The notes under the pieces: generated by a model
The model's input: the letters and a program-made list of their open reading frames with translations, nothing else
What the model was told of the DNA's origin: nothing
The model's database searches: none
In this document: piece by piece, positions 10,160-26,986 of the stretch
How positions within the stretch are numbered: position 1 is the stretch's first letter
Layout of the letters: every line of letters starts with the position of its first letter
Virus record (IMG/VR): IMGVR_UViG_3300010354_000394
Location: 1 to 29,973 of that record
Strand: one strand, 5' to 3'
Source: a virus
Length of the DNA stretch: 29,973 nucleotides
Translations under genes and position numbers: made by a program

Positions 10160-12483
10160 TATGCGTAAAATTTACCATTATATGTTAACAACTGATCGTT
10201 GTGCATAGCTAAAGGTGTTAAATCTAAACTAACATTATAAGACTGCGGTAGTTCGGTATCTACGTCCCAAGATAGGTCAGCAATCTCTAGATCGACCTTT
10301 ACACTAGTACACGCACAACGTATTTGTTTTAGCATTCCTACTACAGATACTTGGACAATAGGTCCTTTAATGTAATCGCCAGATCTTTGTCCGACACTGC
10401 AAATGTTCATTAGCTTGTTTATTTTGTCTAACAAATTTTTTGCATTCAAATTACTATTTGAAAAATCCCTAGATCCTGGCATTGCTATTGCTGTAAATGC
10501 TAGGCCTATCTGTCTTGTAGATCCAACAAACACCTTAAACGTATCTTGTTGGCCTATGTGCTTAAAGTCTTGGTATGATGTGTTAACACTATCAGCGTAT
10601 GTCTTTATAAAAGCATCAAAAGTAACCTCATCACTATCGCCTTTAATTATTATTTTTGATGATGGTCTAATTTGGTCTGCAGTTGCTGGCTTTGCTGCAT
10701 TGTCTATTATTTGCTGATAGCTACCTATGTCTTCATAAATTTTATAGGCTGTGCTAGAATTAAAGCCTTTTTTATAGTCTTTAATTTTATCCTCGTTGAT
10801 TTTCTTTTTTAGTAAATCTACAATTATTGTTTCGTCATTTGAACCTAAAGCCTGTGCAATCTCTACGTTTTTATTTAACTGTCCATCTTTATCAACCAAA
10901 TCCTTTACGGAACTATTTGGGGATAGTGCGTCTTGTTTGGTCAAGTCAGCAAACTTTGGATCTGTTATTAGTGGTTTTAATTGATCGGATATATCGTCTG
11001 CACTAATTTGATTTAACAACCCTATAGCGTTCTGTTTTGTTTCTTTTTGTGCATATGGCTGCGTGTTTTGGTAAAACCGATTTTGACCAACATCACCAGC
11101 GTTTTCATACTTATCTAAAGATCCTCCACCTACAGAATAAGTTATTCCAGTTGTAAGATCAGCTTTAGTATAGCTTGTTTGACCTCCTAATGGATTAAGT
11201 AACGCTACGATTAGTGAAGATCGCGGATCTACTATTTCGTGCCCTCCGTGAGACCCATATGTAGCATCTCCAGGAATTTCGTTTTGTGGATCTTCGCTTC
11301 CTTGATATATTTCAGGAGTAACTTGTAGCACCAATGATCCTAATACAAAAGTTGCTGTTCTTAGCACAGCACCACCATGCTTGGCAACTGCACTATCTTC
11401 GTCAATGCTTGGTGGAGTTGACAGTGTTGGTGTAACGCCATCTCCTTGAAAAATAGGACCACGCAAATCTTTTACATCTGTGATGCTCGACTTTTGAAAA
11501 GTGTTTGATACTCTGTATCCTTGATTAACTTCAGCTGCGGGTAGTGTTGGTACTATCAAACTACCTCTGCTATTTCCAATTTGAACTATACCCTGCGGTA
11601 CTGTTGTTGGCGTATCTTCTGTTTCTATTGCGCTACGTTGCCTTGTTCCTGTGCCAATAATGCCTTGTTCCATTTGCACTTGCTCAACCGACTTTGGCTG
11701 TGTGAACAACTCACCTCCTTGTTGTGGTGTAGTTTGTTTCTTTTTTGGCAAATCCGCACTTCCCTGCTGTATGTCTTCTGTTGGCTCTGTTGTTGGTGTT
11801 GTGCTATACAACTGTCCTCGCATTTCAAAAACACCATTTTCTTCTAACTTTTCTAACGATGTTGTTGGTTTTTCTAAAACAATGCTACTAAATAATACAC
11901 CTTTATCGTTTATAATTCCTTGCCTAACCTCTACATTACGTACTGCTAATGTTGGGTTTGTGCTACCTTGAGTTATTCTGCGTTTAATTTTAATTGGCGA
12001 AGTACTTCCTTGCTCAGTAATTGTTTTACTTTTTGTTGGCTTTGTTAGTGTTTCTGGAATAGGTCGTTCACCTAGTGGTGGCATTTTTTTTATACGAATG
12101 TACTTTGTAAATACATCACTTAAAAAGTATTGTGCTAGATGCGCTGTGGTGCCTAATTTTGTTTGATCAATTCTGTCTGATAAGTTTATACTTGTTCTAA
12201 ACTTAGTATTTGTTGGCTTATTAGTTGCTGTATCGCTAAGAAAAAACTGCGCTAAGTGATTTGTTGTTTGTAGATTAGGCTGCGTATACCTATCGCCCAA
12301 ATTTAACTTATCCGGAAACGGTGTGTATGGTTTTGCTACTACTTGTAGTTGATTTGGTTGCGCTTGTATAGGCGTTGGAGTTGTTGGAACACCTTGGTTT
12401 ATTGTTGGATTAAAAGACTGTATGTCTGGTCTAACCAAATTAGCCAGTCTATCTAAGTTTGCAAAAGGTCTGTTTCCTGCCAT
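10159..12483 (-). CDS. Large tail/baseplate protein with low-complexity, QG-repeat N-terminal half
   Basis: 774 residues. The C-terminal third (from about residue 610) looks like an ordered tail-tube-associated domain: FDAFIKTYADSVNTSYQDFK, then FKVFVGSTRQIGLAFTAIAM, a helix ending NKLMNIC, then YIKGPIVQVSVVG and LSWDVDTELPQSYNVSLDLT, the 'strand, solvent loop, proline, strand' ending seen in baseplate tube-cap proteins such as T4 gp48/gp54. That likeness is only structural impression. The N-terminal half is Pro/Thr/Gln/Ser-rich, contains a 25-residue duplication (residues 60-84 and 99-123) and a recurring QG dipeptide. It overlaps the tape measure stop by one base (TAATG) and is followed by another such overlap, so the three genes are probably translated together. 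Candidate role: baseplate-tube junction or central baseplate component. Confidence 0.65.
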   Translation of the reverse strand: MAGNRPFANLDRLANLVRPDIQSFNPTINQGVPTTPTPIQAQPNQLQVVAKPYTPFPDKLNLGDRYTQPNLQTTNHLAQFFLSDTATNKPTNTKFRTSINLSDRIDQTKLGTTAHLAQYFLSDVFTKYIRIKKMPPLGERPIPETLTKPTKSKTITEQGSTSPIKIKRRITQGSTNPTLAVRNVEVRQGIINDKGVLFSSIVLEKPTTSLEKLEENGVFEMRGQLYSTTPTTEPTEDIQQGSADLPKKKQTTPQQGGELFTQPKSVEQVQMEQGIIGTGTRQRSAIETEDTPTTVPQGIVQIGNSRGSLIVPTLPAAEVNQGYRVSNTFQKSSITDVKDLRGPIFQGDGVTPTLSTPPSIDEDSAVAKHGGAVLRTATFVLGSLVLQVTPEIYQGSEDPQNEIPGDATYGSHGGHEIVDPRSSLIVALLNPLGGQTSYTKADLTTGITYSVGGGSLDKYENAGDVGQNRFYQNTQPYAQKETKQNAIGLLNQISADDISDQLKPLITDPKFADLTKQDALSPNSSVKDLVDKDGQLNKNVEIAQALGSNDETIIVDLLKKKINEDKIKDYKKGFNSSTAYKIYEDIGSYQQIIDNAAKPATADQIRPSSKIIIKGDSDEVTFDAFIKTYADSVNTSYQDFKHIGQQDTFKVFVGSTRQIGLAFTAIAMPGSRDFSNSNLNAKNLLDKINKLMNICSVGQRSGDYIKGPIVQVSVVGMLKQIRCACTSVKVDLEIADLSWDVDTELPQSYNVSLDLTPLAMHNDQLLTYNGKFYA
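12115..12306 (-). repeat. 25-residue duplication inside the 774-residue tail protein
   Basis: Residues 60-84 and 99-123 align over their whole length with the shared pattern NL-(G/S)-DR and TT-x-HLAQ-(F/Y)-FLSD. The copies are separated by 14 residues. The DNA of the two copies has diverged at many third positions, so this is an old duplication kept by selection on the protein. Confidence 0.75.
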
Positions 12484-15400
12484 TATCTAACTCCACTAGT
12501 GTTCATTACTAAACGCAATACTTCGCCAACTTTTCTACCATCCATGTTAATTACACCACCGCCAGCTATTTCAGACCGTAGTCCACGGATCTCATCTATA
12601 AGTATCTTCATACTATCATCTTTAGCACTTTCGTTGCTAGCTTTAGTTGTTGTTTGTTGCTGTGTGGCTTGTCCACCTCCACCTTCTCCACCAAGTATTC
12701 CACCAAGAGCTGTTAAAGCTGGTGCAACTGCTGCTAATCCCACTAATGCTCCTATTATTGGCATAGCTGCCATTCCAGCATAAGACATCAACGCTAATCC
12801 TGCACCAATTGCTGCAACCGCTCCACCCACCATTGCTAATGAAGATGCCACTGTACTTAACGCTGTAAGGGCTCCTGTGACACCTTGTACTGAATTTACT
12901 AGCTGTTGCAACACTAGTAGTGCTGGTGTCATTAGTAGTACAGCTGCACTTACTGCCAATAAGCCTGGTGCAGCAAATAAAGCTGCGGCACCAAATACAG
13001 TTAGACCGGCTGCAGCTGCTGTTAATCCTATACCAAGGACACCTAAACTAAGTCCAAGTGGTATTAAAATTTGCCAGTTATTGGCTACTGTTGTAAAAAT
13101 TTGAGTAAAACCAGCTGCAACTGCTCCTATAATAGCTGGTAGCATCTCTAACGCTTTCATTAGCACGTTGCCGATTACAGTTGCTACTGCAGTTATTACT
13201 TCGCCAAAAACTTTGAATGCTGGGGTCGCCATCCACAAAGCTAGACCTAATGCTAATATAATTGGAATAGCTGGAATCATCGCTGATCCAGCAGCTCCAA
13301 TAGCTGTTCCAAATGCTACAATACCAGGAGCTGCTCCAGCACCGGCTGCACCGGCTGTTGCGGTGTTTATTCCAAAAAGAGATAGCAATCCATTTGCTAC
13401 TCCTAAAACTATGTTACCAGCACCAACAATAATATTGCGTGCTAGCGTCACTGCGTTTAACGCTATTGTGGCTAAAACTCCTCTACCCTTTGTAGCAGTG
13501 CTTGTGTTTTCTATAGTATTTTCAGCTGTAGTCACTCCTATACCAAGCAATCTACCTAATCGTCTAGCGTTTTCTTGAAAAGTTTGTACGGAGGTTAATC
13601 CTGTATTTTTTTGCTTAGATGCACCACTTACGTTTTCTGATAAGGTCTCTGTTGCTGTTGTACCAATACCTAAAAGCCTACCTATACGCTTACGAGCTTC
13701 TATTGCTGTTTGTGAGATAGTTGTGCCAATGCTTTTTTTATTGGCAAGATCTTTTGTGTTTTCTACTGCAATTTCTGTAGTTGTTGTTCCTATTCCTAAT
13801 AGTTTTGCAATGCGGTTTTTAAGGTTGACACCCATCTGCATTAGAGTTGTGCCTATTCCTTTTTTCTTTGTGAGCTCGTTGTTTAACTCTGATTGTGTCT
13901 CAAGATTTGTAACACCAATACCTAGTAATTTTGCAATACGGTTTTTTACGCTAACTGCAGTTTGCCCAATTATAGTAAGTATGCCTCTTTTTTTATTACC
14001 TTCGTTAAGTTGATCAGCGCCCATATCTTTCATCGTAGCTATTCTATTAGCTTCTTTTGCTGCTCGTAATGCTCCAAATTGTATAATAGTCTGCCCTATT
14101 CCTAGTATCATTAACCCATTTTGGGCTGCAAAGCCTAGGACTGCTCCTCCATATTTCATTATACCGCCAATAGCGTTTTCGAGCATTGATGAGTTTTCTC
14201 CAAAGTACTTCTGCTCCATTTGCTGAGCTTCGTTAAATTTAGTTAATTCCTCAACAGTCATACCCATTGCTTCAGCTAACTTTTTCTTTTGAAGAACATT
14301 CATATTATCTAAGCTGCCAACTTGTCTCATAATAGCTGTTTGTTCTTCCATAATTGCATTAGCATCTCCAGACAATGCAGCTGCTCTAAGCCTATCAAAA
14401 TTCATTGACTTGCCTATCAATAGACTAGCTTCCATTTGTGCATTTATACTGCTTTCAAAATCCAATGTTTTTTCAGCTGCGTTTAGTATACTACTTAACT
14501 CAATTCCCATTCTTTTTGAACTAGCAGCTGCTTTTGCAAAACCCTCTGCTCCACCTTTGCTGTAGACTGCCATAAGTCCAGAATTTTTTGCCATTTCTTT
14601 CATAATTGCAGATGGCAACACTCCCTTCATTTGCCCTACTCTTTTAGCAGTCTCTCCAAAATTCTTTGCTGTGTCTGCACTTTCACCGGGCATACGGCTG
14701 ATAGCCATTGTTAGGTTAACAGCTTCTTGTTCTGCTAAACCAAACTTAGTAGCCATTTCACCTATCGTGTGTCGTTGATCCTTAGTTAGTACATTCATTG
14801 TACCGTATTGGGCAATTATTTCTTTATTAACTCCGCTTACTTTACTAAGACCTAACACACTCATTACTGATATTCCGTCAGCCATTACATGGATAGCTTC
14901 GCCAGCTTGCATACCGCTATCTACCAATTCGTGCATTGCATGATTAGCTTTGTGGAGTCCAATTCCAACTTGAGCTGCTGCAAACATTCCAAGAGCTTTT
15001 GGATCCTTTGCTAGTTCTTTAGAAAAATCAAGAGTTTGCTTTATTTTGTCCTTTATCTTGTCGTGAGATTCTCTAATCTCTTTCATCCGCTTTGTTGTCA
15101 GCAGTTGAAGTTCTAAATCTTTTTTTCTAAAGTCTATTGACTTTTCATTTGTTTCTAATGTTTCGAGAGCTATATCCTTTTGGATATCAGATAAAGCTCT
15201 TCCTTTACCTAGCTGCTCAACTACATACTTAGCGGCTTCACCTTCATACCCCTTTACTTCAGCTTGTAGTTTGTACAAATCTAACTCAGCTGATAGTAAT
15301 GACATAGCACTCTTTCCAGCTTCCCCTTCTGTTGCTGCTAGCTCTATGAGATCTTTGCGAGCTTTAATGTTATCTTGCACAGCTTTGTTAACATCAACTT

Positions 15401-17240
15401 GCTTAAAGAATATTAAATTAGAGTGTTGCAAAGTCTCTTGCATTAACTGATTTGATGCTTTATAGCTATCCTTATATTTCTCTTGAAACTTAGCTAGCTC
15501 ACCTTGCGCTTGATATCGTTCTTTTAACTTCTCACTTTCTTTCTCTGATAATTTTAGCGTTTTAAACGTTTCATCGTTTTGTATCTCTTGAATAGATTGT
15601 CCCTTTTTTAATTGTGCAACAACAAAGTCTTGTAGTTTTCCAGTTGCACCTATTGACTCAGCTTGAGCGTCTAGTAACTGTCTACCATCTTGTAAATGCT
15701 CGTTTATTGCTAACAAGGCATCTTCATGCAATTTAGTTTGGCTAGCTTCGTCTTGTAATGTTGCAAGTAACTTTCTCCTACTGCTTATAGCTCGCGAGTA
15801 GTAGCCTTGCTCCATGTTTTGTTTTTTGGCTAAATGATTGCTCTCAAACTCAGCATACTTTTTAGTTAGCAATGCATGCTTTTGTTCTTCTGTTAAGCTT
15901 TTTAACTGTTGCTTAAATTCCTTATCTGCTAATAAATTTAGCAAGTCTGCATTTGCTTTTTCTTTTATTTGGACAGTTGCTTTTGCGCTATAAGATTTTT
16001 TTATTGCTTGCTCAACAGCTTTTTCAAGCTCCAATACCTTACTTACTGCAGCTGTACCTGACTCATATGTGCGATTCAACTCACCCTGTCCACCTGTAAT
16101 AATACCTACGAGGTCGTCTAATTGTTTGTAAGTTAATTTGCTTTTTTCTAGGAAGTTATAAAACTCTTTTGCAGGTTGTATTTTTGCTGCTTCTAATTCT
16201 GCTAGGACTTTAGACTTGTCGACAACAGTTGATAATGCTGCTGTTTCACTAAAGCGACCTTTTGTTGTTTTATTTGTAATTTGCTCTAATTCTTGAGCAC
16301 TTTCTGTTGACTGTTGTATTAAATCTTTTGCTTCTTGTAGTGGAGTTGTATCGATGGTTAATACGTTAGCTTGTAATTTAACTGGATTGACCTTAGCAAC
16401 TTCCTCTTTTATAAGCGTGGTATCTACTTCAGTCACAAGAGCTTGTAATCCTATTAGATCTATTTTTTTAACTTGCTCATCAATCGCCTTAGTGTCTACA
16501 CTTTCTACAACAGCTTTCAGTTCTGCAGCTGGTAGTTGTTTTTTAATTATGCTGGTGTCAACAGACGTAATTGATGCTTTTAGGTCTACAGGGTCAAGCT
16601 TACCCATCTGTGTAGCGTCAATTGATGAAATTGATGCTTTTAAGTCTACGGGCTTTAGTTTGCTTGCTTGAGCTTCTACAGCTTTTGTATCAATTTTTTC
16701 TAACTCAGTTTTAAGCTTTAACGGTGGTAACTTTACTTGGTATGCTTTAGCAATGTCCTCAGCTGCATCTTTTTCCATTCGCTTCGAGGCAACAAGCTTA
16801 TCAGCAACCTCTGTTATTCTTTTGTAGAGATCCGCTGTTATTGTTGTTTTTTTATTAGCTTGCTCTGTAAGATTGATTAAGGTACGAACTAAGTCTCCAG
16901 CTTTTTCTAGCGGTGTAGCATCTAATGTTGGTGTCTTTATTTGCTGCTGTGTGGTTTTTTGAAGCTCACTAAATTTACTTTTGTCTAGTGTAGGTGCAAC
17001 GGTTACCTCACCTATACCCTTTTGTAAGGTTTGTTTTGCATTTGAAGCAAGTTCTTTAATCTTTACGTCGTTAGATTTTAAAAGATTACTAACGTCCACC
17101 CTACCTAACCCTTTAACTAAGTTTTTATTTAGCGGACTGAAGTCGTATGTACTTAACACGCGAGTGATTGCTTTTGCCATATTATTGGCTAAGTCAATGC
17201 CAATGTCATTGCCTTCCTTAGATGCTTTTCCTTTTGCCAT
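12483..17240 (-). CDS. Tail tape measure protein
   Basis: Sets tail length and is threaded inside the tail tube. The 1585-residue protein has the typical makeup: a long N-terminal alpha-helical, coiled-coil-like part rich in Lys, Glu, Ala and Leu (about 1-760), a central globular part (about 770-1060, with the stretch AQVGIGLHKANHAM), four 42-residue repeats (1083-1250), and a very hydrophobic Ala/Gly-rich region with several possible membrane segments (about 1290-1530). It ends with a Gly-rich linker and a polar C-terminus. An earlier set of 20-24 residue repeats covers about residues 176-307. It is by far the largest tail gene, lies downstream of tube and chaperone, and starts three bases after the 96-residue gene. 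At the usual ~1.5 angstrom per residue the tail would be roughly 200 nm or more, clearly longer than T4's; this is an estimate. Confidence 0.9.
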   Translation of the reverse strand: MAKGKASKEGNDIGIDLANNMAKAITRVLSTYDFSPLNKNLVKGLGRVDVSNLLKSNDVKIKELASNAKQTLQKGIGEVTVAPTLDKSKFSELQKTTQQQIKTPTLDATPLEKAGDLVRTLINLTEQANKKTTITADLYKRITEVADKLVASKRMEKDAAEDIAKAYQVKLPPLKLKTELEKIDTKAVEAQASKLKPVDLKASISSIDATQMGKLDPVDLKASITSVDTSIIKKQLPAAELKAVVESVDTKAIDEQVKKIDLIGLQALVTEVDTTLIKEEVAKVNPVKLQANVLTIDTTPLQEAKDLIQQSTESAQELEQITNKTTKGRFSETAALSTVVDKSKVLAELEAAKIQPAKEFYNFLEKSKLTYKQLDDLVGIITGGQGELNRTYESGTAAVSKVLELEKAVEQAIKKSYSAKATVQIKEKANADLLNLLADKEFKQQLKSLTEEQKHALLTKKYAEFESNHLAKKQNMEQGYYSRAISSRRKLLATLQDEASQTKLHEDALLAINEHLQDGRQLLDAQAESIGATGKLQDFVVAQLKKGQSIQEIQNDETFKTLKLSEKESEKLKERYQAQGELAKFQEKYKDSYKASNQLMQETLQHSNLIFFKQVDVNKAVQDNIKARKDLIELAATEGEAGKSAMSLLSAELDLYKLQAEVKGYEGEAAKYVVEQLGKGRALSDIQKDIALETLETNEKSIDFRKKDLELQLLTTKRMKEIRESHDKIKDKIKQTLDFSKELAKDPKALGMFAAAQVGIGLHKANHAMHELVDSGMQAGEAIHVMADGISVMSVLGLSKVSGVNKEIIAQYGTMNVLTKDQRHTIGEMATKFGLAEQEAVNLTMAISRMPGESADTAKNFGETAKRVGQMKGVLPSAIMKEMAKNSGLMAVYSKGGAEGFAKAAASSKRMGIELSSILNAAEKTLDFESSINAQMEASLLIGKSMNFDRLRAAALSGDANAIMEEQTAIMRQVGSLDNMNVLQKKKLAEAMGMTVEELTKFNEAQQMEQKYFGENSSMLENAIGGIMKYGGAVLGFAAQNGLMILGIGQTIIQFGALRAAKEANRIATMKDMGADQLNEGNKKRGILTIIGQTAVSVKNRIAKLLGIGVTNLETQSELNNELTKKKGIGTTLMQMGVNLKNRIAKLLGIGTTTTEIAVENTKDLANKKSIGTTISQTAIEARKRIGRLLGIGTTATETLSENVSGASKQKNTGLTSVQTFQENARRLGRLLGIGVTTAENTIENTSTATKGRGVLATIALNAVTLARNIIVGAGNIVLGVANGLLSLFGINTATAGAAGAGAAPGIVAFGTAIGAAGSAMIPAIPIILALGLALWMATPAFKVFGEVITAVATVIGNVLMKALEMLPAIIGAVAAGFTQIFTTVANNWQILIPLGLSLGVLGIGLTAAAAGLTVFGAAALFAAPGLLAVSAAVLLMTPALLVLQQLVNSVQGVTGALTALSTVASSLAMVGGAVAAIGAGLALMSYAGMAAMPIIGALVGLAAVAPALTALGGILGGEGGGGQATQQQTTTKASNESAKDDSMKILIDEIRGLRSEIAGGGVINMDGRKVGEVLRLVMNTSGVR
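13491..13994 (-). repeat. Four tandem 42-residue repeats in the tape measure
   Basis: Four in-phase copies of 126 bases each (residues 1083-1250), followed by a degenerate fifth copy beginning at 13490. The unit consensus is KK-x-IGTT-x2-QT, then R-I-x2-LLGIG-(T/V)-T, then E and EN. The LLGIG core is invariant in all four. Copies differ at many bases, so they are not a recent expansion or an assembly artefact. Confidence 0.9.
16320..16715 (-). repeat. N-terminal 20-24 residue repeats in the tape measure
   Basis: About six consecutive copies of a unit with the pattern LKA-x-V-x-SVDT-x2-I, followed by a short Lys/Glu helix and PV. Unit length varies (20, 21 or 24 residues), and the (I/V)D(T/A) core recurs in every copy. 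They read as helical or alternating strand-helix repeats at the start of the tape measure. Confidence 0.8.
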
Positions 17241-17243
17241 CTA

Positions 17244-17534
17244 TTAGCGTATCTGTTTGATTAAACTATTCACTTTACTCTTAAACCCACTATTAGTAGC
17301 GTAGCGCTTGTTAAACGCATTTACCATAGCATCTCTTGAAACTCCAACTTGCCTCTTCATTGCTTTGATTTCTGGATCGTCTTGTAGATTAGCTAATAGA
17401 AAATCCCTATGCTTGTCTACAATTGCATTTGCAACTCCTTGCGCTACACCAAAAACAAAATCAAGCAATCCTTCCTCTAAATTTACATTGTGGATTTCCT
17501 CTTTAATTAAGTTGTGGAATTGATCTCTTGTCAT
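17244..17534 (-). CDS. Small protein of unknown function between chaperone and tape measure
   Basis: 96 residues from ATG 17534-17532, beginning MTRDQFHNLIKEEI and then LEEGLLDFVFGVAQGVANAI, with a basic C-terminal half. The start MT-(R/K)-x-(Q/E)-L-x2-LIKEEI with a following LxEG is a pattern I associate with several small structural proteins of T4-like phages, but I cannot name a family. An in-frame ATG ten codons upstream (17564) would give 106 residues. I prefer the inner start because an intrinsic terminator ends just upstream and the promoter-like sequence 17547-17562 lies inside those first codons. It sits three bases before the tape measure start and may assist tape measure or hub assembly. 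Confidence 0.6.
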   Translation of the reverse strand: MTRDQFHNLIKEEIHNVNLEEGLLDFVFGVAQGVANAIVDKHRDFLLANLQDDPEIKAMKRQVGVSRDAMVNAFNKRYATNSGFKSKVNSLIKQIR

Positions 17535-17546
17535 TGTGACTTGCGG

Positions 17547-17562
17547 TTTTCTTATAAATATC
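17547..17562 (-). promoter_or_regulatory. Candidate promoter after the chaperone terminator
   Basis: On the minus strand it reads ATATTTATAAGAAAAC, sharing the TATTTATAA core with the gap upstream of the gp26-like gene. It lies 13 bases past a terminator hairpin and just upstream of ATG 17534, as expected for re-initiation of transcription towards the tape measure and baseplate genes. Evidence is motif and position only. Confidence 0.35.
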
Positions 17563-17574
17563 ATTTAAAATGAA

Positions 17575-17594
17575 AAGCCAGCTATTGCTGGCTT
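17575..17594 (-). terminator. Intrinsic terminator after the tail assembly chaperone
   Basis: On the minus strand AAGCCAGC-AATA-GCTGGCTT forms a perfect 8-bp stem with a 4-base loop, followed by TTCATTTT. The hairpin overlaps the last bases of the stop codon that ends the frameshifted reading frame. The symmetric stem could also work on the plus strand, but no plus-strand gene is present. Confidence 0.7.
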
Positions 17595-17793
17595 ATCTTC
17601 TGCTTGCCTTTTTTACTGCTTGCTCTTGTGCTTCGTGCTCTTGTTTAAGAGTATCAGCTAACTTACTATAGTAATACCTTCTTTGGAATACTGGCATATT
17701 GTATAGCTCAGTGTAAGTAAATCCCATTTTTCCGTAATACATCAGATCAAAGATCTGGTCGTAGAGTAGGGGTCGGTAATCAGACCCCAGGCC
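17593..17793 (-). CDS. Frameshift extension of the tail assembly chaperone (GT-like 'T' part)
   Basis: An open frame continues across the end of the gp26-like gene and adds 66 residues from the GGC codon at 17793-17791 to a TAA at 17595-17593. It contains DYRPLLYDQIFDLMYYGKMG, then FTYTELYNMPVFQRRYYY and a charged helical tail. This is the 'aromatic, GxTY-E-NMP, R-YY' arrangement seen in the downstream part of tail assembly chaperones (for example the T domain of lambda gpGT). Joining needs +1 (or -2) slippage in the T7 run; the product would be 349 or 350 residues. The only internal ATG (17742-17740, 49 residues) lacks a ribosome binding site and would cut the conserved DQIFDLM segment. A homopolymer sequencing error making one continuous gene is the alternative. 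Confidence 0.75.
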   Translation of the reverse strand, partial: GLGSDYRPLLYDQIFDLMYYGKMGFTYTELYNMPVFQRRYYYSKLADTLKQEHEAQEQAVKKASRR

Positions 17794-18643
17794 AAAAAAA
17801 GCTCACCGTGATGGGCACAGCCATCTTATGATTCGTATGCCCACAATTTTCACATTCGTAATTAAACGAAGTGTCAATGTCTGGTGTAAGCTTTTTTAAG
17901 TACTCACGCAGTGCTAGGCTATCTCGTGATAGCATATTTTGTGAAAACTTATATATTTCTGCACCGTCTGTGTTGCCATCTATAGCTACAATCATTTGCC
18001 TCAGTCGTGTAGTAAGCTCAGGATCTACTCCTGTTAGCTTAGCCATTTTTTTTGAAGCTTTAAGATTCTCATTGATAATTTTATCATCACCATGCGTTAA
18101 GAACTTTAGTGTCAAAGTTTTTTTAGTCATTGGTAGTGTAAAATCAAAAGTTGTTTTTCCCTTAACAAACTGACTCCAATCTACAGATTTCTCTTCAAAA
18201 GAAGATAGATCAATGTAGTCTGTTTGTTTGCTTTCACACGCAGGGCATGTTATTTCTGCCTGGTAAGCGTTACCATACGCTAACACACGGGCAGCTATAA
18301 ACAAAGCGTTCTTATCCATTAACAATAGATCATCATATCTTACTTTAGTCACAATAAGCGATTGCAAAAGCTTGTCTATGACAACACCTTGCTTAATCAA
18401 GCTTGCTGAGCTGAGGATATCTTCTTCCTTAGCTGTCATGTACTTGATTTCAATTGTTCCTTCTGCTAGTGGATGTCCTTCTGGATAGAAGTATCCTTTT
18501 GACGGTAGAGGAATTATCTCTGTGGGACCATCGTAGTTACCTACATCAACGTTTGTAACATACTCTTTTGTAAATTGCGATTTCAAATCGTCATCCGATA
18601 TAACCGGTCTTTCGCCTGCTTTAGGCAATCTCGTTTCACTCAT
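17780..18643 (-). CDS. 26: T4 gp26-like baseplate/tail assembly protein; upstream half of a frameshifted tail assembly chaperone
   Basis: 287 residues from ATG 18643-18641. Recognisable stretches are the start IIPLPSKGYFYPEGHPLAEG (43-62), IKYMTAKEEDILSS near 66-79, DKLLQSLIVTK near 90-100 and a Lys-rich middle. This pattern matches proteins annotated as gp26 (baseplate hub assembly) in marine T4-like phages. Two CxxC pairs, Cys133/Cys136 (CPAC) and Cys264/Cys267 (CENCGHTNH), could form a zinc ribbon. The gene lies between tube and tape measure, the usual place of tail assembly chaperones, and the T7 run four codons before its stop gives access to a 66-residue extension. The gene is bracketed by two intrinsic terminators. 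The family name is reasonably secure; the chaperone function is inferred from position and frameshift. Confidence 0.82.
   Translation of the reverse strand: MSETRLPKAGERPVISDDDLKSQFTKEYVTNVDVGNYDGPTEIIPLPSKGYFYPEGHPLAEGTIEIKYMTAKEEDILSSASLIKQGVVIDKLLQSLIVTKVRYDDLLLMDKNALFIAARVLAYGNAYQAEITCPACESKQTDYIDLSSFEEKSVDWSQFVKGKTTFDFTLPMTKKTLTLKFLTHGDDKIINENLKASKKMAKLTGVDPELTTRLRQMIVAIDGNTDGAEIYKFSQNMLSRDSLALREYLKKLTPDIDTSFNYECENCGHTNHKMAVPITVSFFWPGV
17794..17800 (-). other. Putative slippery site (T7) for programmed frameshifting
   Basis: On the minus strand the zero frame reads AGC-TTT-TTT-TGG, and only four codons later comes TGA (17782-17780). After slippage the frame reads TTT-TTT-GGC and stays open for 66 codons. 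A phenylalanine tRNA can re-pair on the T run after moving forward one base or back two, so no special shift mechanism is needed. P2 E/E' also uses a T-rich slippery site. Confidence 0.65.
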
Positions 18644-18737: not shown

Positions 18738-19226
18738 TTAGTACTCCAATACACAGAAGTCTACAGCTAAGGTGAGCTGAATCTCCACTTGAGTTTCAGT
18801 TGCCCAATCAAGGTCACCAAACTGAGCAGTTTTGATATACGCACCTCTAACTTTCCAGTTTTCAATTTTATCACCTACAGGACCCAATACAAAAATATCG
18901 AAGTCTTTTTTGTAGAAATCAGCGTATCCATCACGACCAGTTACTGATTCGTGTGCAGTTCTAATCCACTCCATTACACTCTGTGCTCCTGATGGTACGA
19001 TTGGATCGTAAAGGGTCATTGTGATATCTCCCCACTTACACTTTCCTTTTACCTTACGAATGAGGTTGATGTGGTCTAATACTACCTCACCACACTCAAT
19101 TTGAGGACGTGAGCATTTCTTCATAATGAATGAAGGAACGCCATCTACTTGGAGTATAAAACGGTTCTGTACCTTTGGTTCGAAAGGTGTGTAGAACATT
19201 TTGTCGTTTTCAATTAAATTTGCCAT
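18738..19226 (-). CDS. 19: Tail tube protein (T4 gp19-like)
   Basis: Polymerises into the inner tube of the contractile tail, through which the genome passes. 162 residues, the usual size for the family (T4 gp19 has 163). The N-terminal KVQNRFILQVDGVPSFIMKK (about 18-37), the central GDITMTLYDPIVPSGAQSV segment, EWIRTAHESVTGRDGYADF and the C-terminal TAQFGDLDWATETQVEIQLT are characteristic. Start is ATG 19226-19224. It follows the second sheath gene after a 39-base gap holding a promoter-like sequence, and is closed by an intrinsic terminator. Assignment is firm. Confidence 0.93.
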   Translation of the reverse strand: MANLIENDKMFYTPFEPKVQNRFILQVDGVPSFIMKKCSRPQIECGEVVLDHINLIRKVKGKCKWGDITMTLYDPIVPSGAQSVMEWIRTAHESVTGRDGYADFYKKDFDIFVLGPVGDKIENWKVRGAYIKTAQFGDLDWATETQVEIQLTLAVDFCVLEY

Positions 19227-19265: not shown

Positions 19266-21680
19266 TTATACGTTTTCGAATGATGCACCAGTTGGTAAAA
19301 TGTTGAAATCTAATATAATAAATTCTGATGATCTAGCTGGTTGCAAGAATATCTGACCATACATTTGATTTCTGTCAATTACGTCTGGAGTGTTATTGGT
19401 TTCGTCCATCACTACGCGGAAGGCATACAAGCCTTGACGTGACTTAACTCTGTCGAGATAAGGGTTTACAATATTAAGGAATCTTTGACGAGTTTCTGTG
19501 GTATTGTTTTCAAACACCAGGTAGCGAGTAGCACTTGCAATGTATTTTTTCAATGCAATCATCAAACGGCGTACATTGATTCTGTCAAGAGCACTTGGTT
19601 TAGATTGTAGAGTTTTCTGTCCCCATACACATACGCCCTGGTTAGGGAATGTTGCAAGTGGGTTGATTTTATTCTCATACAATACGTCTCTTTGTGAGAA
19701 AGTAAGCTTCTGCTCAACGTCTACAGCTTCTGTTATTCCGCCCCTATTCAAACCAGCTGGAGCAAACCATTCATAAGCCACTGTATCATTGTAAGCATAT
19801 ACTCCTGGCAATACTACGCTAGGTGGTACCCATACTGGTTTGTTGCGAGTGATATCCATAATCTTAACCCAAGGCCAGTAGCAAGCTGCATAATTTGTAT
19901 CTAGATTAGCTGATCCTATTGCTGCTATTGCATCGCCTAACTGCATTCCTTGCTTAACTGGATCTACAATTATGAACGTATCGCCTCTGTCTTCTGCTAC
20001 TTCAATAACTTTCTGAACCACTGCTGGGTGATCAGTTGCGTTTATTCCTGGGGTTACAATCATATTGATGTCAAACTCCTCACCATTACCTATGATTCCC
20101 AATGCCTTAAAGTAAGCACGTGAACCACTTGTATTTGAAGTAGAGCAGTTGAATCCAAAAATATTGTTTGATTGTATGTCAGCACCTACTTTTCTTGTGA
20201 GTGAAATATCCAATCCATCATATCCATCTTGCAATGGTAGTGTGAATTTTGCAATGTTAGATATATCCAATCCTTTTAGGATAGATGCAGAAACACTACC
20301 GCTAGGTACAAATCCAGTAGTTCTATCGTCCACTGATGATGCACTTGGGTGTATAAAGCAATAGTCAAGATTAAAGTATCCATTAGCTCCAGCTGTGGTA
20401 CCTGCTGGTACTGGCTTCAAGTAGTTTGCATTATCTGCTGCTGTGAAGTCCCAACCGTAGTAAGCTTTTGTATTGTAGAATCCGTTTATCACAGTTTCGG
20501 TACCTGCTGAACCAGTTGCTGATTCGTTCTTTCGGTTTGTGACGTATTTAGCTACTGGTTGGTTATAGCTGCTAGATATTGTCTGCATTACTGGTGTAAA
20601 TCCGTACGGTCTGTAAGATGCTGGAATTCCTTTTTCTGCCACATCGTCGGTTACTTGTACGTAGATATACTTGCTTCTGTTTTCATAGTTACCGGCATAG
20701 GTAATTGTGTTATCGCTGTTAATTACAACGTACCTGTCACCAATTCTTCTGCATATGTAGTTTACAGAATCCGGATCCAAATTACATCCTACGAATGTTT
20801 CAAGAACATTAGGTCTTTGGTCTGTGTCATTGTAAGCACGTACTAGTACGGTAAATGCACCGTATTCAGAAGCTTGGTCATCTCCAGGCATCAGTGTGTT
20901 AATTATACTCACTTTGCATGCAGTATTACCATCTGCTCCTTCTCCTTGGAAGATAAACCTAAATAAGTTTTGAGGATCTTGGCCTTCTAGTAGCTGTGAA
21001 GTCACATAGGGAGTTGCTGCTTTTCTAGCTGCACCATAAGTTGCTCCTGCTAAGTTTAAGGTCGCTTGTGTTGAACTTGATTCAAAAGTAACAGTTGCAT
21101 TAGGATTTCTAGTTAAGAATTCACTAAACCAAGTGTACATAAAAGTACGCTTATCCCCTACAACTGAAGTACCTAATACTTTGTCAAAGCTTATTGTTGA
21201 GGTTGGTACTACAGAAGCGCTAAAGGCTTGCGATGCTACACCACCACCAACAAGAACTACTCCAAAAGAGTCTTGTCCTGATGCTGGTGATACTGTTGAT
21301 CCAGTTAAGTTGTATCCATCTGCTTTGCCAACATTAGCACTTATGTGAATGGATCCTACTACTCTACTAACACTTCCTGTGCTAGCTATGATGTTGACCA
21401 TTCCTGTTGAGTACCCACCATCTTGAACTACACGCACAACTATTACGTTACTTGCATTACGTAAGTAGCTTTTGACAGTGTATGGTACGTAAGTGGTTTC
21501 ATCTAGATCACCAAATTTAGCTTTGAAGTCTTCAAAGTTGGTAATCATTGTTGGTGTAAAAGCTGGTCCTCTATTTGTAGGACCTATTACTACTGCACCT
21601 ATTGAGGCTATGCCTACCGGTAGAAAAGATAAATCTTTTTCGTTTGTAAAGACACCAGGACTAACTATTTTTTCGGCCAT
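19266..21680 (-). CDS. 18: Tail sheath protein, second tandem copy (T4 gp18-like)
   Basis: Contractile sheath subunit that surrounds the tube and drives injection. 804 residues (T4 gp18 has 659). The start MAEKIVSPGVFTNEKD, the early FGDLDETTYVPYTVKSYLRN and the C-terminal block with GINRG-like FAPAGLNRGGI, QRDVLYENKINPLATFP, NVRRLMIALKKYI, NTTETRQRFLNIVNPYLDRV and DRNQMYGQIFLQP are characteristic of the family. It is closely similar along its ends to the upstream sheath gene but differs in residues of about 95-215 and 360-470, the regions expected to be the exposed domains. It starts 23 bases after the first copy stops. Both copies are intact, so both may be made. Confidence 0.93.
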   Translation of the reverse strand: MAEKIVSPGVFTNEKDLSFLPVGIASIGAVVIGPTNRGPAFTPTMITNFEDFKAKFGDLDETTYVPYTVKSYLRNASNVIVVRVVQDGGYSTGMVNIIASTGSVSRVVGSIHISANVGKADGYNLTGSTVSPASGQDSFGVVLVGGGVASQAFSASVVPTSTISFDKVLGTSVVGDKRTFMYTWFSEFLTRNPNATVTFESSSTQATLNLAGATYGAARKAATPYVTSQLLEGQDPQNLFRFIFQGEGADGNTACKVSIINTLMPGDDQASEYGAFTVLVRAYNDTDQRPNVLETFVGCNLDPDSVNYICRRIGDRYVVINSDNTITYAGNYENRSKYIYVQVTDDVAEKGIPASYRPYGFTPVMQTISSSYNQPVAKYVTNRKNESATGSAGTETVINGFYNTKAYYGWDFTAADNANYLKPVPAGTTAGANGYFNLDYCFIHPSASSVDDRTTGFVPSGSVSASILKGLDISNIAKFTLPLQDGYDGLDISLTRKVGADIQSNNIFGFNCSTSNTSGSRAYFKALGIIGNGEEFDINMIVTPGINATDHPAVVQKVIEVAEDRGDTFIIVDPVKQGMQLGDAIAAIGSANLDTNYAACYWPWVKIMDITRNKPVWVPPSVVLPGVYAYNDTVAYEWFAPAGLNRGGITEAVDVEQKLTFSQRDVLYENKINPLATFPNQGVCVWGQKTLQSKPSALDRINVRRLMIALKKYIASATRYLVFENNTTETRQRFLNIVNPYLDRVKSRQGLYAFRVVMDETNNTPDVIDRNQMYGQIFLQPARSSEFIILDFNILPTGASFENV

Positions 21681-21703: not shown

Positions 21704-24145
21704 TTAAGCGTTTTCAAATGATGCACCAGTTGGTAGGATATTGAAGTCCAAGATAATGAACTCAGAAGATCTAGCTGGTTGCAAGAATATCTGACCGTAC
21801 ATCTGGTTTCTATCTATTACATCTGGTGTGTTGTTTGTTTCATCCATTACTACACGGAAAGCGTATAATCCTTGGCGAGACTTAACTCTATCAAGGTAAG
21901 GATTCACGATGTTTAAAAATCTTTGGCGGGTTTCCGTAGTATTGTTTTCAAATACTAAATATCTGCTAGCACTTGCAATGTACTTCTTTAACGAGATCAT
22001 TAAACGACGCACGTTAATCCTATCGAGAGCACTTGGTTTAGATTGCAATGTCTTTTGTCCCCATACACATACTCCTTGATTTGGGAATGTTGCAAGTGGG
22101 TTAATTTTGTTTTCGTATAAAACATCCCTTTGTGATAAGGTTAGTTTTTGTTCTACGTCAACAGCCTCAGAAATACTTCCTCTGTTTAATCCGGCTGGAG
22201 CAAACCATTCAAATGATACACTATCGTTAAACGCGTATACTCCTGGTAACACCACGCTTGGTGGTACCCACACTGGCTTATTACGGGTTATGTCTATGAT
22301 TTTAACCCAAGGCCAGTAGCAAGCTGCGTAGTTTGTATCAAGGTTAGCGTTGCCTATTGCAGCAATTGCGTCACCAATTTGTTCACCTTGTTTAACCGGA
22401 TCCACAATCACAAATGTATCACCTCTATCTTCAGCTACTTCGATAGCCTTTTGTATTACTGCAGGGTGTTGAGTTGCATTTGGGCCAGGCATTACAATCA
22501 AGTTAATATCAAACTCTTCGCCGTTACCTATAATTCCTAATGCTTTAAAATAAGCTTGTGTGCCTGCTGTGTTTGAATTAGAACAGTTGAATCCGCATAC
22601 GTTTGCGGCTGTTATTGCTGAGCCTACTCTTTTTGGTGCTGCTATGTCTAGTCCATCAAATCCATCTTGCAATGGTACAGTAAACTTTGCAATATTAGAG
22701 GTATCCAATCCTTTAAGTGCACTTGCTGATACTGGACCACCTGCTGTAAACCCTGTAGTTCTGTCATCTACTGATGATGCACTTGGGTGTATGTAGCAGT
22801 AATCGAGGTTGAAATAGCCATTTAAACCTCTAAGGTCAGTTGGTACTGTTGAACTTGCTGGTATAGGATTTAAGAAGTTGTTGTTGTCGTATGAGGTATA
22901 ATCCCAACCGTAGTAAGCTTTTGTATTGTAGAATCCGTTTATAATTGTTTTTGCATTTGATCCTGTTAAGCTAGTTGCATATGATGCATTTTCAACGTAG
23001 CTTGGGAATGGCATACTTACCGATGCTGATACAAATGGTTGGTAAAGTGGCTCAAATCCATAAGGTTTGTAGCTTGTTGGAATACCTTTTTTGTATACAG
23101 CTGCTTGCACATCAACATACACATACTTACTTCTATTTTCATAGTTACCAGCGTAAGTGATTGTGTTATCACTGTTGATTATAACATACCTATCACCAAT
23201 TCTTCTAGCTATAAAATTAGGAGAATCTGGATCTAAATTACATCCTACGAATGTTTCAAGTATGTTTGGCTTTTGATCTGTATCATCATGTGCACGTACT
23301 AATACTGAAAAAGTGCCGTAGTCTGATCCTGGGTCATCTCCTGGTAGTATTGTGTTGATAATGCTTATCTTGTAAGAGGTGTTTCCATCTGCTCCTTCTC
23401 CTTGAGCAACAAATCTAAATAATTTTTGCGGATTTTGACCTTCTAGTTTTTGAGTTGTTATGTATGGAGTTGCTGCTTTTCTAGCTGCACCGTAAGTCGT
23501 TCCTGTTAGGTCCAAGGTTCCATTAAGAGTAAAGTTTAATAGAGATCCTGCTGATTGTCCAGTTGTTGTATTCAAGAAGTCTTTGAACCAAGTATACAGA
23601 TAACCCCTCTTATTACTTTTTACAGATCTACCAAGTACCTTTTCCAAACTAATTGCGGAAGTTGATACAGTAGAACCAGATACTATTTCAGCTGTTGGTG
23701 CTGCTGTTCCTGATAAAGTAATTCCAAATGAGGATGATATGTTTGCGTCAGTAGGTACTGTTGCTGTTGAGAAGTTTAACCCATTAGCACCTAAAGTTTT
23801 TGCACTTGGGTGAATCATACCAACAATACGCTGTACATTTGAACCAGACCAGATTATTGCTATTGGAGTTGTAGAATAACCTCCGTCTTGCATTACACGA
23901 ACTACAATCACATTACTTGCATTGCGCAAGTAGCTTTTTACTGTGTAAGGTATGTAGGTTGTTTCATCTAAGTCACCAAATTTAGCTTTGAAGTCTTCAA
24001 AATTAGTGATTACAGTTGGGGTAAAGGCTGGTCCCTTTGAAGTTGGTCCAATGACAACAGCACCTATAGATGCTATTCCAGTTGGTAAAAATGATAGATC
24101 TTTTTCGTTTGTAAAGACACCAGGACTAACTATTTTTTCGGCCAT
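21704..24145 (-). CDS. 18: Tail sheath protein, first tandem copy (T4 gp18-like)
   Basis: Contractile sheath subunit, 813 residues, with the same start (MAEKIVSPGVFTNEKD) and almost the same C-terminal 200 residues as the neighbouring 804-residue copy. The conserved blocks include the Trp-rich ACYWPWVKI segment, PVWVPPSVVLPGVYA, LNRGSISEAVDVEQKL and the C-terminal FIILDFNILPTGASFEN. It differs mainly in the middle, with short insertions relative to the other copy. The DNA of the shared parts has many synonymous differences, so the duplication is not recent. It is preceded by an AT-rich gap with a candidate promoter. Which copy dominates in the virion cannot be told from sequence. Confidence 0.93.
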   Translation of the reverse strand: MAEKIVSPGVFTNEKDLSFLPTGIASIGAVVIGPTSKGPAFTPTVITNFEDFKAKFGDLDETTYIPYTVKSYLRNASNVIVVRVMQDGGYSTTPIAIIWSGSNVQRIVGMIHPSAKTLGANGLNFSTATVPTDANISSSFGITLSGTAAPTAEIVSGSTVSTSAISLEKVLGRSVKSNKRGYLYTWFKDFLNTTTGQSAGSLLNFTLNGTLDLTGTTYGAARKAATPYITTQKLEGQNPQKLFRFVAQGEGADGNTSYKISIINTILPGDDPGSDYGTFSVLVRAHDDTDQKPNILETFVGCNLDPDSPNFIARRIGDRYVIINSDNTITYAGNYENRSKYVYVDVQAAVYKKGIPTSYKPYGFEPLYQPFVSASVSMPFPSYVENASYATSLTGSNAKTIINGFYNTKAYYGWDYTSYDNNNFLNPIPASSTVPTDLRGLNGYFNLDYCYIHPSASSVDDRTTGFTAGGPVSASALKGLDTSNIAKFTVPLQDGFDGLDIAAPKRVGSAITAANVCGFNCSNSNTAGTQAYFKALGIIGNGEEFDINLIVMPGPNATQHPAVIQKAIEVAEDRGDTFVIVDPVKQGEQIGDAIAAIGNANLDTNYAACYWPWVKIIDITRNKPVWVPPSVVLPGVYAFNDSVSFEWFAPAGLNRGSISEAVDVEQKLTLSQRDVLYENKINPLATFPNQGVCVWGQKTLQSKPSALDRINVRRLMISLKKYIASASRYLVFENNTTETRQRFLNIVNPYLDRVKSRQGLYAFRVVMDETNNTPDVIDRNQMYGQIFLQPARSSEFIILDFNILPTGASFENA

Positions 24146-24740: not shown

Positions 24741-25844
24741 TTAATAGTACTCTAATATTGCTAAATAACCACCACTACCACTTCCTCCATTTCCTCCATT
24801 TTGGTTTATAGCACCTCCTCCACCAGAAGCACCACACCCAAAACCACTAGCGTTACCACCATTTCCTCCAGCTATAGTTCCTGCTAAATCACCACTACCC
24901 CCACCATGGCCTGCAGTACCAAAACCGTAACTAGAAGTAATTGTAGCACTTCCTGAAAATGAAAGTAATGAAATAAGACTAACAAGATTGTTAACTCCAT
25001 TACTACCTGAGTTAGGAGATACTCCTCCACGACCAGGTACACCTGAAGTGTATAATGTTCCATTAATTAAATATATTCCTGATCCTGATGCTCCATTATT
25101 AGTTGCAGCTGCTGTTACTGTACCACCAGCTCCTCCTCCTCCACAACAAACAAATCCATTTCTAGCATGGTAATTAGTTACTACAGAATTTTGTACATAT
25201 GTTGGAACACGTGCTACTCCGGTTTGATTATTTCCTCCTCCTATTCCTGTTATACGAAATGGACCTTTTAAAAGAGGAACATTTCCTACTGTTGAAGCTC
25301 CACCAAAGGCACTACCATTAGTACTAATAGACCCACCTCCTCCTCCAGCACCTCCTGCAGCTATTATATATGTTACTGATGCTGAAATTAATGTTGTTGC
25401 TGTTCCACTACTACCAACTGTACCAGCTCCGGCAGATGTAGTTCTACCTGCTCCTCCATTAGTTCCTGCAGATATAGTTATGGTGTACGTACCAGCAGGA
25501 ATTAAACTTGCTGTATAAAATACAATTGATGCTGCTGCACCAGCCCCTCCTGCTCCTCCACCTCCCCATAAACCAGATGTATTTCTAGCACCACCACCAC
25601 CACCTCCACCTGCTCCTACAGCTGCAATTTTGACATATTTAACATCTGAAGGTTTAGTCCAAGTACCACTACTAGTATATTCTCGTAGTATAAAATATCC
25701 TTTTGATTCAGTTAAATTGTATTCAGTACCGGTAGTGTTTTTAAAAAAAATACTACTTTGAGTAACATATAACAATCCTCCAGCACTGGGAGTAGCAGGA
25801 GCAGATTGTGTAACTTGATAAATTGTATTTAAAAACTTAGGCAT
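24741..25844 (-). CDS. Glycine-rich adhesin-like tail protein (PGII type)
   Basis: 367 residues. The first 50 residues (MPKFLNTIYQVTQSAPATPS, then LYVTQSSIFFKNTTGTEYNLT) match the N-terminal module of the next two fibre genes upstream. From about residue 60 the protein has a strand-rich entry (TWTKPSDVKYVKIAAVGAG), long Gly runs and repeated GGxGG segments, closing with GGSGSGGYLAILEYY. Such polyglycine-II bundles form the receptor-binding tip in T2/T6 gp38-type adhesins and similar proteins. No catalytic motif is seen. Start is ATG 25844-25842, five bases after its paralogue stops. A host-receptor role is inferred from fold and neighbourhood. Confidence 0.75.
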   Translation of the reverse strand: MPKFLNTIYQVTQSAPATPSAGGLLYVTQSSIFFKNTTGTEYNLTESKGYFILREYTSSGTWTKPSDVKYVKIAAVGAGGGGGGGARNTSGLWGGGGAGGAGAAASIVFYTASLIPAGTYTITISAGTNGGAGRTTSAGAGTVGSSGTATTLISASVTYIIAAGGAGGGGGSISTNGSAFGGASTVGNVPLLKGPFRITGIGGGNNQTGVARVPTYVQNSVVTNYHARNGFVCCGGGGAGGTVTAAATNNGASGSGIYLINGTLYTSGVPGRGGVSPNSGSNGVNNLVSLISLLSFSGSATITSSYGFGTAGHGGGSGDLAGTIAGGNGGNASGFGCGASGGGGAINQNGGNGGSGSGGYLAILEYY

Positions 25845-25849
25845 ATTGT

Positions 25850-26986
25850 TTAATAAAATTCAGTAATGATACATAAACCTGAAGAACCAGATCCTCCGTT
25901 TCCTCCGGATACACTTACTGTTAAAGAATAAGCATGACCACCACCTCCCCCTCCAGCACCGTATAATCCTCCATTACTACCATTTCCTCCATTGATACTA
26001 CCACTTGCAGCACCTCCACCATTACCTCCTCCTCCTAGTCCATATAATGTAGTACTTCCGGTAATTTGTAGAAGTGTTGTTATCATATTGTCTGTTGGTG
26101 CTGTAGCATTTTGACCACCACTGCCACTTCCAGGATTTCCTCCATTGTTTACAATTGTGTTAAACTGATACCCAGATGATCCTTTAGAGCCAGAATAAAA
26201 AACGGTTTGAAATCCACCTCCATATCCTCCACCTCCACCACCTCTTCCTTTTTGAACATCTAAAGATGCAGCAGAATTTTCTTGAGATGAAGAAATACTC
26301 TGAGGATTAACATCAAAAATAGTAGGAGCATGAGTAACAGCTACATCATAAGCAACTCTAGCAGCTGCCTGGCAGCCATTAATAGCATATGGTGGTCCTG
26401 CAGGAGTACATGATATTGCATATCCACCAGCAACTGTATTAGGAGTAATAGTAAGATTACCTTTTCCTCCAACACCACCTTTTGCTATTACTAAACTACC
26501 AAAAGAAGTATCTCCTCCATCAGAACCAGAATTAGTAGTAATAGTAGTACTTGTTGATCCAACTCCTCCTGCTCCACCTGCTCCTACAGTAACAGTATAA
26601 CTATTAGCTAACATGCTACCATCAAACGTTGCCCATACAATTGCTCCTCCTCCACCACCACTAGCGGGTGCTGTGTTAGATGCTCTTCTCATAGCACCTC
26701 CACCTCCTCCTCCAGCACCAACACAACATATTTCAGCAAATTTTAAACCAACTGGTTTATTCCAAGTATAAGTTTGTGTTGTTCCGTCTCCTATAGCTGA
26801 ACCAGTGTAATATAGAATACTTATACGACCACGACCTGGGGTTGAAATATCAACTTCTGTGCCTGATGAATTTTTAAAAAAGAATTTATTACTTCCACTA
26901 GCATATACAACTCCAAAACCTGAGTTTGGTGTTCCAGGTGCAGATCCTGTAGTTGATAATTGTAAACTTTTTAATATTTGACTCAT
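25850..26986 (-). CDS. Glycine-rich adhesin-like tail protein (PGII type), paralogue
   Basis: 378 residues, beginning MSQILKSLQLSTTGSAPGTP and then YASGSNKFFFKNSSGTEVDIS, the same N-terminal module as its neighbours. A strand-rich entry (YTWNKPVGLKFAEICCVGAG) leads into Gly runs and GGxGG repeats, ending GGSGSSGLCIITEFY, which aligns with the end of the neighbouring adhesin. The central loops differ strongly from the neighbour's, with a Pro/Asn-rich insertion near residues 200-250. It starts nine bases after the orphan module gene. The two proteins are likely alternative or cooperating receptor-binding tips; which is exposed is unknown. Confidence 0.75.
   Translation of the reverse strand: MSQILKSLQLSTTGSAPGTPNSGFGVVYASGSNKFFFKNSSGTEVDISTPGRGRISILYYTGSAIGDGTTQTYTWNKPVGLKFAEICCVGAGGGGGGAMRRASNTAPASGGGGGAIVWATFDGSMLANSYTVTVGAGGAGGVGSTSTTITTNSGSDGGDTSFGSLVIAKGGVGGKGNLTITPNTVAGGYAISCTPAGPPYAINGCQAAARVAYDVAVTHAPTIFDVNPQSISSSQENSAASLDVQKGRGGGGGGYGGGFQTVFYSGSKGSSGYQFNTIVNNGGNPGSGSGGQNATAPTDNMITTLLQITGSTTLYGLGGGGNGGGAASGSINGGNGSNGGLYGAGGGGGGHAYSLTVSVSGGNGGSGSSGLCIITEFY

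Follow-up and report, generated by a model that had tools for sequence, protein, structure and literature searches.

The locus described here raises a simple question. When a phage gene stops a few codons after a run of seven Ts and a second frame lies open across the same run, are the two frames read as one protein and, if so, by what route? The window, i.e., the whole stretch of DNA that was analysed, consists of 29,973 nucleotides (positions 1 to 29,973 of IMG/VR record IMGVR_UViG_3300010354_000394), and a preliminary description of it had proposed that a gp26-like protein is joined here to a GT-like extension by a programmed +1 or -2 frameshift at a phenylalanine run. The best explanation, in which we have considerable confidence, is that the window comes from a distant T4-type myovirus in which one gene would give rise to two tail assembly chaperones by a +1 slip of phenylalanine tRNA. 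The features needed for the argument are listed below.

17780 to 18643, minus strand: gp26-like gene, the putative short form of the tail assembly chaperone, 287 amino acids, ending SFFWPGV followed by the stop; matches Pfam PF12322 and phrog_150 and is kept in the relatives fetched.
17794 to 17800, minus strand: candidate slip site, a T7 run with gp26-frame codons TTT TTT T(GG); T7 in 111 of the 120 non-redundant +1 loci.
17593 to 17799, minus strand: +1 (or -2) frame with Phe-Phe and the 66-residue extension GLGSDYRPLLYDQIF...ASRR, stop TAA at 17595-17593; conserved in its own frame, with matches to gp51.
17803 to 17805, minus strand: TGA in the +1 frame, directly 5' of the slip site, which blocks upstream initiation of the window's extension.
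17769 to 17788, minus strand: candidate stimulatory hairpin GGGGTC-TGATTACC-GACCCC, 5 nt 3' of the T7 run and containing the 0-frame stop; evidence from covariation and folding z-scores.
18738 to 19226, minus strand: tail tube protein (gp19 type), the upstream neighbour; phrog_4542, 2.5e-26.
12483 to 17240, minus strand: tape measure protein, 1585 amino acids, downstream; recognized by BLASTP.
17244 to 17564, minus strand: 106-amino acid ORF between the chaperone and the tape measure.

The gp26-like gene lies between the tail tube and tape measure genes, which is the gene order of G/GT-type systems, and the locus as a whole appears to have the anatomy of a G/GT chaperone pair. The gp26-like protein matches Pfam PF12322 (T4_baseplate) with 53.3 bits against a cut-off of 24.5 (E=3.8e-14) and phrog_150 (baseplate hub) at 8e-15. 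The tail tube protein is 51% identical to the Immutovirus protein in the equivalent position, and the tape measure matches the protein annotated as such in Flavobacterium phage immuto (BLASTP, 1e-11) and the Mel-JY01 homologue (8e-21). The 106-amino acid ORF has no PHROG match and no convincing Pfam match; Mel-JY01 has a 71-amino acid ORF at this position, and BLASTP finds no match between the two. Two other gene pairs in the window were noted. Adjacent tail sheath genes (19266-21680 and 21704-24145, minus strand), which encode about 810 amino acids each and both match PF04984/PF17482, could be either a tandem duplication or two sheath types, and at 24741-26986 (minus strand) another adjacent pair shares similarity to phrog_863, a tail fiber assembly family.

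At the end of the gp26-like gene the 0 frame reads GTG AGC TTT TTT TGG CCT GGG GTC TGA, with the T7 run at 17800-17794 and the stop at 17782-17780 (minus strand). The offset frame, which is opened after the TGA at 17805-17803, immediately ahead of the T run, reads GCT TTT TTT GGC CTG GGG TCT GAT and continues until the TAA at 17595-17593; its extension carries GFTYTELYNMP. As to where the gp26-like frame ends, what the offset frame adds and the motif that it contains, the preliminary description was accurate, coordinates included. For a single sequence with the base composition of the window the chance of 68 open codons is p ~0.02, which is weak by itself.

Relatives were collected as 80 and 74 viral contigs, later 80 more, plus GenBank isolates. 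Among the 243 loci scored, some of which are the same contig fetched twice, the extension lies in the +1/-2 frame in 235 and in the -1 frame in seven, and there are no loci with both parts in a single frame. The remaining locus is that of Rhodothermus phage RM378, where the profile missed the extension, which is +1 by eye at TTTTTTTGG. The same offset frame was present at the same site in 157 of the 158 loci of the first set, from which a non-redundant set of 121 loci, 120 of them +1, was drawn. That 235 of 243 related loci share both the offset and its position is, in our view, decisive for the reality of the overlap. When relatives were aligned, as the preliminary description had advised, the break fell at the same place, and its proposal of a programmed +1/-2 frameshift into a GT-like extension at a Phe run is strongly supported by this shared offset; relatives with both parts in one frame, which it had named as counter-evidence, did not turn up among the loci scored.

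The composition of the site bears on the direction of the slip. The 120 non-redundant +1 loci have the heptamers TTTTTTT (111), TTTCTTT (four) and TTCTTTT, GCTTTTT, CTTTTTT, TTTCTTC and TTTCTAT (one each), and additional TTCTTTT loci are present in the third contig set. Phe codons at the site are TTT in 117 of 118 cases at the first codon and in 114 of 114 at the second, compared with 77% in the rest of the gene. On a tree built from gp26 without the site, there were at least 10 changes (about 10) between T7 and non-T7 sites, and the +1 frame was kept. Re-pairing of the P-site tRNA one base 3' is feasible at one of the two codons in every variant. Re-pairing two bases 5' is feasible at T7 and CTTTTTT, poor at TTTCTTT and TTTCTTC, and fails at TTCTTTT, GCTTTTT and TTTCTAT. 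Because every variant permits +1 and most bar -2, we favor +1 for the family; the T7 loci alone fit both directions.

The site in the window resembles neither of two standard arrangements. A canonical -1 site (X XXY YYZ) is followed by an extension in the -1 frame, and the offset here is +1/-2; at a prfB-type site a stop codon occupies the A site and a Shine-Dalgarno stimulator lies 3 nt upstream, and here the A-site codon is TGG, with the stop three codons further. The anti-Shine-Dalgarno energy upstream in the window is only -3.0 kcal/mol, and a search for a Shine-Dalgarno-like stimulator gave no signal that was consistent at either the prfB or the dnaX spacing. Averaged over the 120 non-redundant loci, anti-Shine-Dalgarno pairing is stronger 36-27 nt ahead of the site than in flanking windows, a dip that may reflect codon composition.

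The RNA just 3' of the site holds a candidate stimulator. It folds more stably than shuffled sequences (mean z -1.84 for the segment from +13 to +103; other windows give -0.2 to -0.6), and the arms of the stem differ among relatives, e.g., GGGTCTG/CAGGCCC, GGGCCTA/TAGGCCC, GCCTCTA/TAGAGGC and GGTCTTA/TAAGGCC, among others. Covariation was scored in 82 loci whose sole selection criterion was a stop at the same distance. Seven of the eight pairs have changed on both sides, and double-change cells number 54 compared with 13.7 +/- 4.3 in shuffled data (0 of 500 shuffles), which is also above any slid register. The register was derived from the same 82 sequences, a bias in its favour, and outside the subgroup the stem is missing from many loci. 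RNAalifold found no common structure for all 82 sequences because a good part of these loci lack the hairpin, a feature confined to one subgroup. Every locus with six or more consecutive pairs (52 of 52) has T7, and all nine non-T7 loci are without the stem (Fisher p 0.005, kinship ignored). The covarying hairpin probably raises the efficiency of the slip in the subgroup to which the window belongs. If this is true, +1 slippage with a simple 3' hairpin as stimulator would be an unusual type of site.

Downstream hairpins are classically stimulators of -1, i.e., backward, slips. Since this hairpin is confined to T7 loci, we keep as a rival for the window's subgroup a -2 ribosomal frameshift on T7 in the style of phage Mu, which would give a long form with one additional Phe (SFFFGLG). 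T7 does permit Phe-tRNA to re-pair two bases back, and a hairpin that is found only alongside T7 would favour such a backward movement. However, the frame is the same at the five variants named above where -2 is impossible or poor, these variants are nested among T7 loci, and one junction would then require two mechanisms. We therefore regard the -2 slip as unlikely, including in the loci that have the hairpin.

Slippage of RNA polymerase at T7 would produce mRNAs that are one U short and contain one long frame. Poly-T/A runs can cause such slippage, and T7 is present in most of the loci. However, the longest T run in the variants is 3 to 6 with the offset unchanged, a conserved covarying RNA hairpin would be unnecessary for a transcriptional event, and one clade, described below, has shifted to a canonical -1 ribosomal heptamer. 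The T run has been gained and lost while the offset persisted, which makes polymerase slippage hard to invoke and error impossible. As a general rule polymerase slippage was rejected, because the offset survives the loss of T7, and for the window we consider it very improbable.

The extension itself shows how it is likely to be translated. In related pairs, the differences within extension codons 2-20 number 6023, 2353 and 10597 at codon positions 1, 2 and 3 of the +1 frame, and 6891 codon changes are synonymous in this frame versus 1581 for the same bases read in the gp26 frame; the pairs are not independent and the figures are descriptive. The extension evolves as a protein in its own frame, beginning just past the site, with purifying selection acting on both frames. 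Phe-Phe-Gly of the +1 frame is invariant in 50 aligned fused proteins, partly by choice because the rows were picked for the TTTTTTTGGC site; in an unselected extension alignment FF and G are held in 98%. Locus L119 has lost the 0-frame Pro and retained the +1-frame Gly-Leu.

These patterns are difficult to reconcile with two separate overlapping genes in which the extension initiates itself, either by coupling or from an internal start. The GenBank annotations of immuto, Mel-JY01 and P-SSM2 do present the parts as separate genes, and some loci have in-frame start codons upstream. However, Phe-Phe-Gly-Leu at the overlap is the best conserved part, and 58 of the 120 loci have no ATG, GTG or TTG from the upstream in-frame stop to extension codon 10 (24 of the 58 have none within the first 25 codons either); therefore, the conserved part can be reached via gp26 only. 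Independent initiation was rejected on these grounds, and we consider it very improbable. The preliminary description had named an own start signal of the second part as evidence that would count against a frameshift, and no conserved start signal was found among the relatives. Finally, a sequencing or assembly error, or a decaying gene, has negligible probability and was rejected for the family: homopolymers are error-prone and a single contig could not rule error out, as the preliminary description had worried, but the break recurs in hundreds of loci, drawn from many samples and including several isolates, T5, T6 and C-interrupted sites all keep the same offset, and both frames are under purifying selection.

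With a +1 slip in a single gene, events might proceed as follows. Most ribosomes would reach the 0-frame stop and release the 287-amino acid short form. Some would slip one base forward at TTT TTT T, the peptidyl Phe-tRNA re-pairing one base 3' while the A site presents TGG, and would read 66 further codons to produce a 349-amino acid long form containing ...SFFGLGSDYR.... In the window's subgroup the hairpin, which begins 5 nt past the T run, would enhance the slip. By analogy with lambda G/GT, the short form would coat the tape measure and the extension would recruit the tube protein. Comparison among relatives shows the offset frame to be conserved, reveals the site with its variants, and documents covariation in the hairpin, the order of the genes and one copy per complete genome carrying the overlap; slippage itself, its +1 direction in the window's subgroup, its efficiency and the function of the proteins are what we infer from these observations.

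The protein family is consistent with this scheme. Both gp26 and gp51 of T4 match PF12322; in gp51 the match covers residues 1-201 of 249, and of the two proteins it is gp51 that has a C-terminal extension, so that T4 would seem to carry the short and long forms as two genes. The complete genomes with the overlap (P-SSM2, SP-15, RM378, Atu_ph07, Mel-JY01 and immuto) have one copy of the gp26 gene, and T4 has two. The T4 gp26 and gp51 sequences taken singly were too distant for profile-sequence comparison; Pfam supplied the link. The window's extension matches phrog_634 (gp51) at E=0.0055, and a related family profile matches P-SSM2 gp51 at E=5.5e-6 and leaves the C-terminus of T4 gp51 unmatched; the extension may correspond to the C-terminal part of gp51. 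For structure prediction the short form and the extension were modelled separately. The model of the short form is a confident one (pLDDT 88), and gp26-type proteins, that of SP-15 among them, are included in its closest structural matches from viruses. Of the solved structures, the HK97 tail assembly chaperone 2OB9 matches it best, a weak but pertinent similarity (Z 4.6, rmsd 3.5, 76 residues), and Foldseek found nothing significant for this model among solved structures. The extension model consists of helices, with one long helix at the end, and Foldseek found nothing significant for it. Vladimirov et al. (2022), as cited in PMC10885494 and PMC12846349, put forward T4-like gp26 and gp51 as tail assembly chaperones.

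The direction of the offset is not the same in all of the relatives. Loci L061 (at 2520-2770), L167/L168 and L169 group together with support 100 in a clade nested within the +1 loci. In this clade the site is A AAT TTC TTC TGG CCT, a canonical -1 heptamer, and the extension occupies the -1 frame. We view this AAATTTC clade as a natural switch of frameshift direction, judging from the sequences. The site T TTT TTC, again with a -1 extension, is present in the jumbo phages LR756511 and Atu_ph07, and the single PF12322 gene of Prochlorococcus phage P-SSM2 is followed by gp51 in the -1 frame across AGTTTTTTC. The +1 isolates include Bacillus phage SP-15 (TTTTTTC), Listeria phage LIS04 (TTTTTTA) and phage GXN1 (TTCTTTC). 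Long stable hairpins are located right behind the T TTT TTC -1 sites of Agrobacterium phage Atu_ph07 (L164, 3771-3880) and P-SSM2 (L251, 2200-2290), and these look like classical -1 stimulators.

The gp26 tree has long deep branches, and the order of direction changes is settled only within the nested clade. On balance, we favor a history in which the Phe-Phe junction of the gp26/gp51 family is fixed and the recoding solution varies: +1 at Phe codons would be the rule in a large environmental clade, with a hairpin evolving in some lineages, -1 would have arisen in the nested clade and also in other lineages, and T4 would use two genes. With the +1/-2 overlap kept at a single site in several hundred T4-type relatives, and its direction changed in one nested clade or more, these viruses form a natural series. 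It could be used to study the working of a +1 site, the effect of a 3' hairpin on such a site, and the ways in which recoding arises, is reversed or gives way to gene duplication.

Public annotations can also be corrected. GenBank isolates list the extension as a short separate hypothetical gene, truncate it or omit it. For example, it is annotated separately at 6833-6943 of L003 (MW353176), 6806-7042 of L002 (PP395634) and 2218-2391 of L251 (P-SSM2), and in immuto it is a 36-amino acid fragment with an internal start.

Frameshifting of tail assembly chaperones is known in the -1, -2 and +1 directions (PMC5009743). The window's locus resembles lambda G/GT-type systems (Xu, Hendrix & Duda 2004; Atkins et al. 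2016, PMC5009743) in its predicted short and frameshifted long products, its position between tube and tape measure, its short extension and its conserved site near the end of the gene. Those systems are usually -1 (-2 in Mu, with +1 proposed in the haloarchaeal myovirus HSTV-2), whereas this PF12322-family locus has a +1/-2 offset at a Phe run. T4 gp26/gp51 belong to the same family but are two separate genes without a frameshift, instead of one gene with an overlap. Cyanophage P-SSM2 likewise has a single PF12322 gene, which the gp51 part overlaps in another frame, although its extension is -1 at T TTT TTC and a strong hairpin follows the site. The Vandenendeviridae/Andersonviridae chaperones (phage Adele, PMC12846349) also end the short chaperone gene with a poly-T site and have a conserved open extension, but the direction is -1 at GTTTTT. 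In bacterial prfB (CUU UGA) and influenza PA-X (UCC UUU CGU), as proposed here, a peptidyl tRNA on UUU/CUU re-pairs one base 3'. A resemblance to prfB is seen in the CTT T variants, and one to PA-X in the TTC TTT CGT of phage GXN1. Compared with these two, the A site holds TGG rather than a stop, a conserved Shine-Dalgarno stimulator was not found, and one subgroup has a 3' hairpin.

The published view, as given by the title of Vladimirov et al. (2022) and by the papers citing it (PMC10885494 and PMC12846349), is that T4-like phages make both tail chaperones without frameshifting. As far as the literature searched shows, with Vladimirov et al. known through those citing papers, what is new is that a large environmental clade of T4-type phages has the frameshifted overlap as its rule, at Phe codons and in the +1/-2 direction, and the same is true of the covarying hairpin and the change of direction within the clade.
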